In this document: piece after piece, positions 27,165 through 29,219 of the stretch
Numbering within the stretch: the stretch's first letter is position 1
How the letters are laid out: each line of letters opens with the position of its first letter
Origin: Streptomyces zhihengii
GTDB taxonomy: Bacteria; Actinomycetota; Actinomycetes; Streptomycetales; Streptomycetaceae
Reading direction: 5' to 3'
Length of the DNA: 64,000 bases
Assembly: GCF_016919245.1 (NCBI RefSeq)
Contig: NZ_JAFEJA010000001.1
Span: 6,287,501 to 6,351,500 of the forward strand
Made by a program: the position numbers and the translations under genes
The notes under the pieces: model-generated
Seen by the model: only the letters and a program-made list of their open reading frames with translations
Databases searched by the model: none
Told to the model about the DNA's origin: nothing

Positions 27165-27335
27165 CGGCCCGTCCCCGCCGGGCGCGTCACCGGCACGGCT
27201 CCGGCCCTTAATTGCGTGGCGCGCCCTGCGGACCGGTCACTACAGTCCTCCCCGTGGACCCCGCCTCCCGGCGCGCGGGCCGCGGTCGCGCCGTGCAGGC
27301 GCACCCGCCGCCCGCCCGATCCCGGGAGCCGGATC

Positions 27336-27480
27336 CACGGGGCGGCCCGGTGCGACCGGCCGACGGATACTTCCACGACAGAGACTGCGGGTTCGAATCC
27401 CGTCCGGCTCCGTGCCGGTAGCTCAAATGGACAGAGCACCCTGTTCCGTCACCGAACCTGATCTCGGGCCGCCCGCCCCG
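27336..27480 (+). ncRNA. putative bacterial Y RNA (Ro60-associated, tRNA-mimicking)
   Basis: A tRNA-like module is present in permuted order. The T arm is GCGGG-TTCGAAT-CCCGT (27387-27403). A closed acceptor-like stem follows, CCGGC-TCCGT-GCCGG (27404-27418), then the TA linker, then the D arm GCTC-AAATGGACA-GAGC (27421-27437) with its GG. This is the arrangement known for the effector module of bacterial Y RNAs. Outside it, GACGGA/TCCGTC (27362-27367 and 27445-27450) and the 11-bp stem 27340-27350/27464-27474 join the ends. Between them lies an internal loop with GGTGCGA on the 5' side and CCTGATC on the 3' side, similar to the Ro-binding GGUCCGA and UUGAC of animal Y RNAs as I remember them. 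It ends 39 bases before the Ro60 gene. The transcript ends are estimated; a TACAGT box at 27241-27246 may be the promoter. Confidence 0.78.
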
Positions 27481-27518
27481 CACTTCTCTCATCCGCGGAA
27501 ATCCGGGGGGATTTTCCC

Positions 27519-29219
27519 ATCACCCGTTTCAACAGCGCCGCAGCGCGCGACGAAGCAGCTCCCTACTCCTACGTCGACCGGCACGGACGCGTCCTCTTCG
27601 GCGACGAGGAAGCGCCGCCGGACCGGCCGCGCCCCGTGGGCCGCCCCGTCGAGGGCGGGCAGCTCGTCCGCCCGGCCGCCCGGCCGGACGTCCTGCCGCC
27701 GGCGCGCCCGCGCACCTACGAGGGCGGCCCCGGCTTCGCCCGGGACCCGCGCACCGAGCTCTTCCTTCTCGCCGTCGCCCACTTCACGGACACCGGGACC
27801 TTCTACGAGTCCGCCCGCGACCGCGACAGCCGCTTCACCTCACTGGTGAGCACCCTCGCCGTCGAGGACCCCGCGTGGACCGCCGGCCTGCTGGGCTGGC
27901 TGCGCACCGGGGCACACCTGCGCACCGCCTCGGTCGCCGGCGCCGCCGCGTTCGTGCACGCCCGGCTGGCCGCGGGCGCCGCCGGGCAGGACACGTTCAA
28001 CCGCCGGGTCGTCGACTCCGTGCTCCAGCGCGCCGACGAACCGGGCGAGCTGCTGGCCCACTGGACCGCCGCCTACGGGCGGGCGGTGCCCAAGCCGGTG
28101 AAGCGCGGGATCGCCGACGCGGTGCGCCGCCTGTACGGCGCCCGCTCCCTGCTCAAGTACGACACGGAGAGCAGGGCCTTCCGCTTCGGCGACGTGCTCG
28201 CCCTGACGCACGCCTCGCCGGACCCGGCGAAGCCGTGGCAGGGCGACCTCTTCCGGCACGCGCTCGACCGGCGGCACCGCCCCGGCACGGCGCCCGTGCC
28301 CGCCTCGCTGCCCGTCCTCGGCGCGCACCGGGAGCTGATGGCGCTGCCGGCGGGGGAGCGCCGCGCGGTCGTCACGGGCCCCGGCGGGGCGGAGCGGCTG
28401 GCCGCTGCCGGGATGACCTGGGAGGCGCTGGCGGGCTGGCTCCAGGGCCCGATGGACGCGGCGGCCTGGGAGGCGGTCATCCCCTCGATGGGCCCGATGG
28501 CGCTCCTGCGGAACCTGCGCAACTTCGACGAGGCGGGCGTCGGCGACGAGGCGGCGGCCGAGGTCGCCGCGCGGATCGCGGACCCGGCGCAGGTGGCCGC
28601 CGCGCGGCAGTTCCCGTTCCGCTACCTGGCCGCGCAGCGGCACGCGCCGTCGCCGCGGTGGGCCGACGCGCTGGAGCGGGCCCTCGGGCACTCGCTGGCC
28701 AACGTGCCCGGGCTGCCGGGGCGGACCCTGATCCTGGTGGACCGCTCGGGCTCGATGTGGGACCCGCTGTCGGAGCGGTCCGTGCTCAACCGCGCGGACG
28801 CCGCCGCGCTCTTCGGCACCGCCGTCGCGATGCGCTGCGAACAGGCCGACCTGGTGCAGTTCGGCACCTCGCACCACCGGGTCGGCTTCACGCCCGGCGA
28901 ACCCGTCCTGGGCGTGATGAAGCGCTTCCGGATGCTCGGCGGCACCGACACCGTCCGGGCCGTGCGCGCGCACTACGACGGGCACGACCGGGTGCTGATC
29001 GTCACCGACGAGCAGGCGGCCGACGGCCCCCGGCGCGGGGTGACCGATCCCGTCCCGGACGAGGTGCCCGTCCACACCTGGAACCTGGCGGGCTACCGCT
29101 GGGGTCACGCGCCCGCCGACGGGCCGCACCGGCATGTCTTCGGCGGACTCAACGACGCCGCGTTCCGGATGGTTCCCCTGGTGGAGAGGGGTGCGGCGGC
29201 CGACTGGCCGTGGTTGTGA
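27519..29219 (+). CDS. rsr: Ro60/Rsr orthologue (TROVE and vWA domain RNA-binding protein)
   Basis: This ring-shaped RNA-binding protein binds Y RNA and, with exonucleases, takes part in RNA quality control and stress decay in bacteria. The TROVE HEAT-repeat domain covers about residues 50-380 (DPRTELFLLAVAHFTDTGTF, AVPKPVKRGIADAVRRLYG, SLLKYDTESRAFRFGDVLAL). The vWA domain has an intact MIDAS, LVDRSGSM near residue 407 and later GGTDT. It ends VPLVERGAAADWPWL. The first 39 codons contain no ATG, GTG or TTG. The frame begins plausibly at ATC (27519), preceded by GGGGGGA, giving xTRFN like homologues (usually MxRFN); the first standard start is GTG at 27636. From 27519 it is 566 residues. Confidence 0.88.
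   Translation: MTRFNSAAARDEAAPYSYVDRHGRVLFGDEEAPPDRPRPVGRPVEGGQLVRPAARPDVLPPARPRTYEGGPGFARDPRTELFLLAVAHFTDTGTFYESARDRDSRFTSLVSTLAVEDPAWTAGLLGWLRTGAHLRTASVAGAAAFVHARLAAGAAGQDTFNRRVVDSVLQRADEPGELLAHWTAAYGRAVPKPVKRGIADAVRRLYGARSLLKYDTESRAFRFGDVLALTHASPDPAKPWQGDLFRHALDRRHRPGTAPVPASLPVLGAHRELMALPAGERRAVVTGPGGAERLAAAGMTWEALAGWLQGPMDAAAWEAVIPSMGPMALLRNLRNFDEAGVGDEAAAEVAARIADPAQVAAARQFPFRYLAAQRHAPSPRWADALERALGHSLANVPGLPGRTLILVDRSGSMWDPLSERSVLNRADAAALFGTAVAMRCEQADLVQFGTSHHRVGFTPGEPVLGVMKRFRMLGGTDTVRAVRAHYDGHDRVLIVTDEQAADGPRRGVTDPVPDEVPVHTWNLAGYRWGHAPADGPHRHVFGGLNDAAFRMVPLVERGAAADWPWL

Follow-up and report, generated by a model that had tools for sequence, protein, structure and literature searches.

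The window analysed here, a 64,000-nucleotide stretch of the Streptomyces zhihengii genome (contig NZ_JAFEJA010000001.1, positions 6,287,501 to 6,351,500), carries on its forward strand a Ro60 orthologue, rsr (27519-29219), preceded by a tRNA-like element, YC (27340-27474), a short companion, YB (27254-27338), and a promoter-like block (27210-27246). All window features described below lie on this strand. The rsr product contains a TROVE domain (Pfam, 47.4 bits); a vWA domain, which the first-pass annotation had ascribed to it as well, is not found by Pfam and appears only as a motif seen by eye. Two solved structures of TROVE domain-containing proteins in the PDB (9l5y, 9kop) match the protein with an E value of 2.7e-32, its score with the NCBIfam Rsr model is far below the cut-off (24.7 vs 900) and PADLOC gives no match for it. 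Judging from aligned start sites, rsr of the window's clade likely starts with ATC. This codon stands at the start in the window (27519) and in three relatives (L008 3001, L009 3001, L090 1501), six matched start sites that represent four distinct genomes after de-duplication, and ATG is found at 92/99 matched sites. The spacing from an upstream GGGGGG run to the ATC is similar across the clade, and the next in-frame ATG, GTG or TTG in the window lies 39 codons downstream.

YC is built on a long terminal stem, the 5' strand of which (27340-27350) pairs with 27464-27474 (helix 1 of alignment A1, see below) and ends in the GG of the motif GGTGCG. Direct reading and a script re-check place GGTGCGA at 27349-27355 and CCTGATC at 27457-27463, both as previously claimed. 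Further inside, a conserved UACUUC that is unpaired in the model (27368-27373; present in 64 of 69 YC elements) is followed by an anticodon-stem-like helix, 4 bp long in the window (27378-27381 with 27441-27444; helix 3 of A1), and by AGACT at the variable-loop position (27382-27386), the last two assigned by direct reading. Visual inspection also showed UACUUC in many of the YB, stand-alone and phage copies. The T arm, located both by direct reading and by script (27387-27403; stem 27387-27391/27399-27403, loop TTCGAAT 27392-27398), runs into a five-bp acceptor-like stem closed by the five-base loop TCCGT (27404-27418; strands 27404-27408/27414-27418; helix 5 of A1), and then into the linker TA (27419-27420) and a D arm (to 27437; stem 27421-27424/27434-27437) with GG in its loop at 27429-27430. 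The first-pass annotation had described these arms, ordered as in a circularly permuted tRNA and carried by a long terminal stem, and each of them was recovered where it had been placed; its overall span (27336-27480) fits the coordinates, and its 39-base gap to rsr (27480 to 27519) holds given the ATC start. Counted from the last paired base, the TROVE gene begins after 45 nt, so the claim that the element is encoded next to a Ro60 orthologue is borne out. The acceptor-like stem has 5 bp in the window vs 7 to 8 bp in many relatives and, being closed by a loop, offers no free CCA end. The T loop is tRNA-like in 69/69 YC elements, and at least 67 of the 69 have GG in the D loop.

At many rsr loci two or three elements stand in tandem upstream of the gene, in the order YA (distal, tRNA-like), YB (middle, short, without a tRNA-like domain) and YC (beside rsr, tRNA-like); no YA was seen in the window's cluster. 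The first-pass annotation overlooked YB, which is covered by a match to covariance model R2 (27257-27339, 31.8 bits, E 1.5e-5, the window row being among the R2 training rows) and has intact counterparts upstream of rsr in relatives. YB is partly degenerate in the window and in L008; at L009 and L090 YB is kept and a tRNA-like YC is not seen, a pattern of reciprocal loss of YB and YC.

Just upstream of the first Y RNA, the promoter-like block comprises AATTGCGTGGC (27210-27220) and TACAGT (27241-27246). Of the 72 relatives' loci in which the first Y RNA motif was located, 70 have a TANN[GC]T hexamer no more than 40 nt in front of it, and the upstream half of the block (AATTGCGTGGC) was compared with relatives by eye. 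A scanner for the sigma-70 consensus found no match at the block, which we infer to be the putative promoter of the cluster. Between the Y cluster and rsr, a terminator scanner that requires a T run found none; actinobacterial terminators often lack a T run.

Identity of the element

The YrlA covariance model of Rfam, which the first-pass annotation had proposed as a check, gave a sub-threshold match: at permissive settings the full model matches 27360-27455 (42.8 bits, E 2.2e-8), below the gathering cut-off of 69 bits. As a control, a genuine tandem tRNA-Asn pair in the same genome (L002 1477-1628) scores 40.7 bits with this model, because the T arm of one tRNA and the D arm of its neighbour, read in succession, look permuted. 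Rfam alone would not suffice to show Y RNA identity here, and given this control the case was therefore built by comparison. No Rfam family, that for tRNA included, exceeds its cut-off in the window, and none does at the rsr loci of 19 relatives; ARAGORN calls neither a tRNA nor a tmRNA in the window, and the Rfam animal Y RNA family, searched at E up to 10, matches neither window positions 27180-27560 nor L010 2740-3030. The resemblance of GGTGCGA and CCTGATC to the Ro-binding strands of animal Y RNAs, proposed in the first-pass annotation, is putative.

The training set of our covariance model R1 includes the window; for this reason a further model, R3, was built from 28 sequences that exclude the window and L008, with no acceptor pairs. 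R3 matches the window at 27338-27479 with 89.6 bits (E 8.7e-17), the next match in the window reaching 17.7 bits, and brings the tandem tRNA-Asn decoy down to 32.9 bits. It also matches rsr loci of other families in the phylum (two in tandem at L151, 70.5 and 49.5 bits; one at L152, 59.0 bits) and two actinophage Ro loci. The proposed identity as a bacterial Y RNA is thus supported by the R3 match, together with covariation and association with Ro60 loci.

R1 is unspecific at E <= 1e-4: its weak matches in the phylum were neighbouring tRNA genes at 8/8 loci inspected, namely tRNA-Asn pairs at L153, L154, L156 and L171 (Streptomyces), which score about 45-48 bits, and the loci L155, L157, L160 and L163. 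Association counts consequently use 1e-8 or 1e-9, cut-offs that were picked after the scores had been seen. A plasmid search gave no match.

Association with Ro60

Loci were drawn from named genomes (the best 80 of 198 relatives, 240 stretches), with 30 further loci from a sample of 199 Streptomyces genomes; some genomes are in both sets (e.g. L009 and L089). A tRNA-like element (R1, >=55 bits) occurs at 72/80 Ro60 loci among these best 80 of 198 relatives and in the closest relative, L008, so the expected presence upstream of rsr in relatives was found. YC is present at 68 of these 72, and four (L011, L018, L019, L071) have YA only. The other eight (L009, L022, L029, L045, L049, L051, L054, L078) have YB only, detected by R2 with 48.7-85.2 bits, and at least one Y RNA therefore precedes rsr at 80/80 Ro60 loci of the best 80 of 198 relatives; these counts were made by hand from tables, and some rows trained R1 or R2.

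Across 396 actinobacterial genomes searched with R1 under Infernal's stricter filters, matches at E <= 1e-8 were found in 10 and TROVE in 11, ten of them shared; G390 is the TROVE genome without an R1 match, and 0/385 genomes without TROVE have one at this threshold. Among the 199 Streptomyces genomes, 101 have Ro60 matches at E <= 1e-10 (some only Ro60 fragments). By hand count among the matches listed, 84 of the 86 genomes with R1 at E <= 1e-9 have a Ro60 match, and 17 of the 101 Ro60-list genomes are without R1 at that threshold, again among the matches listed. Two genomes, G186 and G196, combine a strong R1 match with no Ro60 match, and a TROVE search of both found none. In the window's genome YC is the sole R1 match at E <= 1e-4 among the matches listed.

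Covariation and folding

Alignment A1 holds 43 elongator-type YC elements, the window and 42 of 45 others collected (L026, L084 and L101 were left out). The six-helix structure was written from one row, L039, and is somewhat favoured in the covariation test because it derives from one of the aligned rows. In A1, 94.5% of cells are paired vs 87.8% in shuffles, 16 pairs changed on both sides vs 11.2, and 121 cells are compensatory vs 37.7; 0/500 shuffles attain the A1 value on any of the three measures, and slides by 1-3 columns leave 32-51% paired. The first-pass annotation had called for covariation across homologous loci, and the structure as a whole does covary at these 43.

Changes on both sides occur in four of the six helices (1, 2, 3 and 5). 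The terminal stem (helix 1) has 13 pairs, 92.3% of cells paired and 7 pairs with both-side changes; the anticodon-stem-like helix (helix 3) has 93.3% of cells paired with both-side changes at 4/5 pairs, and the acceptor-like stem (helix 5) 97.7% paired with 3 such pairs. In helix 2, the pair of columns 25-137 is mostly a mismatch (29/43 unpaired). The T stem, with 100% of cells paired in the 43 sequences, has 4/5 pairs that never vary, and the D stem is invariant across them; being nearly invariant, these two stems give no covariation of their own. RNAalifold alone recovered the T, acceptor-like and D stems, the greater part of the terminal stem and some of S2, and did not predict the anticodon-like helix. 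Folded singly, 27330-27485 does not significantly exceed shuffles in stability (z -0.80, 38/200 at least as good) and its minimum-energy fold differs from the proposed structure.

Diversification of the tRNA-like core

Sorted by D arm, the 69 YC elements (the 68 and the window) comprise 48 of elongator class I, 16 of Leu type, defined by the D-arm string GTGGCGGAA...GACGCGC, and 5 of initiator Met type, defined by GGTGGAGCA.... Set against 53 distinct tRNA sequences of its own genome, the tRNA-like part of the window's YC comes out as a generic elongator type, with Thr-cgt best overall and Lys-ttt best by D arm at close scores. The D-arm finder gave no result for L031, L033, L067 and L107 (YA), L063, L074 and L106 (initiator type), L077 (Leu type), L130 and L152. 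Because the finder is incomplete and the nearest-tRNA assignment of elongator types is weak, we claim only Leu, initiator Met and Glu types. The variable-loop region with its preceding strand reaches >=20 nt in 14/16 Leu-type elements vs 0/48 of class I and 0/5 of initiator type; class II tRNAs likewise have a long variable region. The variable hairpin was followed through 13 Leu-type rows, 11 of the 16 with L100 and L117 added (L034, L040, L064, L069 and L080 were left out for short or poor hairpins): it shows both-side changes at 5/5 pairs, although no more than 77.8% of cells are paired.

On a quick Ro60 tree of 81 proteins, 30/78 inner branches of which are open, the Leu label requires 11 changes, no fewer than 7 of them forced by starred branches, where shuffled labels average 14.8. 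The initiator label requires 5, with a minimum of 4 forced, and the shuffled average of 4.9 indicates no clustering. Between near-identical loci, the main difference lies in the core. L064 (Leu) and L066 (class I) agree at 327/330 positions upstream (99%) and 1458/1500 in rsr (97%), vs 53/87 in the core (61%); between core and start codon, 75/81 columns agree. The pairs L080/L066, L053/L058, L057/L065 and L069/L076 behave likewise, with 90-98% agreement upstream, 48-66% in the core and 90-94% in rsr. The pairs L010/L032 and L017/L062 also diverge in the 3' flank (53% and 74%), and in L048/L028 the divergence is greater throughout. The tRNA-like core thus appears, from these alignments, to have been replaced between near-identical rsr loci (elongator, Leu with a variable arm, initiator Met). 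The change falls mostly in the D arm, anticodon-like stem and variable region, because the T arm and acceptor are often kept.

Stand-alone and phage copies

From the matches listed for the 199 Streptomyces genomes, 17 non-Ro60 places were chosen, 7 kb each (6.5 kb for one). L141 proved to be a broken Ro60 locus, L130 (G186) a relic-like cluster and L142 a YB-YC pair. The remaining 14 (L126-L129 and L131-L140, from 13 genomes) are single Y RNAs with no Ro60 match within the stretch, among the matches listed; of their genomes, G196 is without a Ro60 match and G170 has Ro60 fragments only. The nearest tRNA is Glu-ttc for 11/14; L131 and L137 are slightly nearer Ser-tga by D arm alone. The eleven Glu-type copies have 96.4% of cells paired, and their terminal stem covaries, one of its pairs being GC in 6, CG in 3 and UA in 2. 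Nine of the 11 are succeeded by a terminator-like hairpin (not L129 and L135). By eye, L126 and L136 seemingly have a common neighbourhood with a Clp-like gene upstream.

It had been cautioned that such an element could be mistaken for a tRNA, and this holds elsewhere: ARAGORN calls tRNAs inside 4/14 stand-alone Y RNAs (L126, L129, L131, L136), calls that are probably false. A relative of the window Ro60 occurs in 81 phage records. Six phage loci were examined; R1 at E <= 1e-8 matches upstream of the Ro-like gene in L246, L247, L248 and L250 and downstream of it in L249 (4466-4619), and L251 has weak matches only. The annotated tRNA-Arg of Gordonia phage VanLee (L246, 2177-2248) lies inside the best R1 match; ARAGORN calls a tRNA there, and no Rfam tRNA match is obtained at E <= 0.001. 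The tRNA-Ser of Streptomyces phage Alone3 (L247, 2196-2269) lies inside a weak R1 match (33.1 bits) and has no Rfam tRNA match. On these sequence matches, both phage genes are probable misannotations. Within tRNA arrays near the Ro-like gene, phage sequences also carry matches to the manA RNA motif just under its cut-off of 55.2 (L248 4504-4667, 49.7; L247 4389-4621, 47.8).

Discussion

We propose, with a probability of roughly 0.88, that the product of 27340-27474 is a bacterial Y RNA that partners the Ro60 protein encoded directly downstream. The alignments describe a conserved predicted RNA: a terminal stem with the internal-loop motif GGUGCG opposite GAUCU, permuted tRNA arms, and a place in cis to rsr. 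By analogy with studied bacterial Y RNAs, the terminal stem and internal loop would be seated on the Ro60 ring and the tRNA-like domain would gate the ring and/or recruit PNPase or a tRNA-binding partner, gating or recruitment that may steer RNA turnover. One promoter in the 27210-27246 block probably drives a cluster-rsr transcript from which the Y RNAs would be cut.

Detailed knowledge of bacterial Y RNAs comes mainly from Deinococcus and Salmonella (PMC7790460, PMC8394870), and their tRNA mimicry by circular permutation is described in PMC11472068 and PMC8394870. The stem binds Rsr and the tRNA-like domain is reported to bind PNPase (PMC8394870, PMC7790460); the tRNA-like domain of YrlA is reported to be a substrate of the tRNA modification enzymes DusA and TruB (PMC8394870), and the Salmonella YrlA structure is 6CU1 (PMC8394870, PMC11472068). 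PMC9569102 and PMC8190616 refer in passing to matches of YrlA in mycobacteria and in a prophage, and a review on mycobacterial sRNAs calls the role of the mycobacterial TROVE protein in sRNA metabolism unknown.

YrlA (RF02553) resembles the window element in its permuted domain with D, T and acceptor-like arms, its long stem joining the two ends and its place beside Rsr. YC falls outside RF02553 by score and is best regarded as a variant of the broad class, with a five-base variable loop and an anticodon-like stem in the tRNA-like domain; unlike YrlA, relatives of the window include Leu, initiator Met and Glu types and stand-alone copies. Salmonella YrlB is not known to have a tRNA-like domain. 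In the rsr-yrlBA-rtcBA operon (PMC7790460), YrlB is like YB a second Y RNA beside a tRNA-like one; in contrast, YB precedes rsr and, in relatives, is flanked by YA and YC, and the sole RtcB match in the window's genome sits about 2.65 Mb away. With the Rsr/Y RNA/PNPase system of Deinococcus radiodurans (PMC7790460, PMC8394870), the window's genome has in common a Ro60 orthologue, a predicted Y RNA and a PNPase gene; PNPase tethering at the window is putative. tmRNA and viral tRNA-like structures likewise mimic tRNA, but YC has no free CCA end. By title, no literature on a Streptomyces Y RNA or Ro60 was found, most subscription papers lying outside the search; the existence of the Streptomyces element may already be known from bacterial Y RNA surveys. 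The novelty is the diversification of mimicked tRNA types and the stand-alone copies, of which no description was found in the literature searched, mostly without subscription papers. The first-pass annotation had overlooked the core replacement, the stand-alone, mostly Glu-type Y RNAs and the likely ATC start.

Could the structure instead be a cis-acting 5' leader that controls translation or stability of rsr mRNA, for example through Rsr feedback, with no free RNA? The short distance from the last paired base to the start codon (45 nt), the scanner's finding no terminator in between and the kept place upstream of rsr in 80/80 loci (best 80 of 198 relatives) are what such a leader would show; but two or three tandem copies at many loci, similar elements at 14 loci without a Ro60 gene in the stretch, the hairpins that end most Glu-type copies (9/11) and the fact that known bacterial Y RNAs are free RNAs make it improbable. 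A leader role and a free Y RNA role could coexist. Far less credible is a decayed tandem tRNA pair or tRNA pseudogene, a reading suggested by the near-equal YrlA score of the real tRNA-Asn pair and by the tRNAs behind all eight weak R1 loci inspected: the loop-closed acceptor and terminal stem covary, R3 separates the two cases (89.6 vs 32.9 bits), YC lacks anticodon arms and its place at rsr is conserved. Least likely of all, and rejected as a chance repeat, is a tRNA-Sec-like element from 27325, drawn from a perfect 9-base inverted repeat (27325-27333/27403-27411). Rfam tRNA-Sec reaches 29.1 bits there, under its cut-off of 47; 27325-27333 belongs to the 3' strand of YB, and in L008 the repeat is broken and the Y RNA helices persist.

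With the Y RNA reading retained, the change of tRNA type calls for an account of its own. The D arm, anticodon-like stem and variable region switch together, which suggests that the mimicked type is under changing selection; the tRNA type would then represent a changing specificity. Against this selective inference alone stands the view that the types are alleles exchanged by recombination or horizontal transfer with no functional meaning. Streptomyces recombine, the types often share similar T arms and acceptors and the Ro60 tree used is a quick one, so we consider exchange a real contender, if at less than even odds; it sits poorly with the L064/L066 pair, whose cores match at only 61% of positions against 99% over the 330 nt upstream and 97% in the gene, and with the co-variation of D-arm type and variable-region length (>=20 nt in 14/16 Leu vs 0/53 others). 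A bolder proposal, which we offer tentatively and think unlikely as it stands, is that Ro60-bound tRNA decoys form a changing repertoire in Streptomyces and their phages, each drawing in or diverting an enzyme specific to a tRNA class. Beside rsr as well as in the stand-alone Glu-type units, the core would repeatedly be swapped for a copy of a different tRNA type (elongator, class II Leu with its variable arm, initiator Met, Glu); toxins that cut tRNA, phage factors and enzymes of tRNA maturation would be candidate targets.

Y RNA mimicry accounts for a number of probably spurious tRNA calls in Streptomyces and phage sequences. A genus rich in culturable species, with up to three Y RNAs per locus and unlinked copies, lends itself to comparative and genetic tests of the purpose of the mimicry, as do natural pairs in which the imitated tRNA is the main difference, such as L064/L066. 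If the decoy reading were true, tRNA identity would be a fast-evolving specificity determinant of Ro60 particles.
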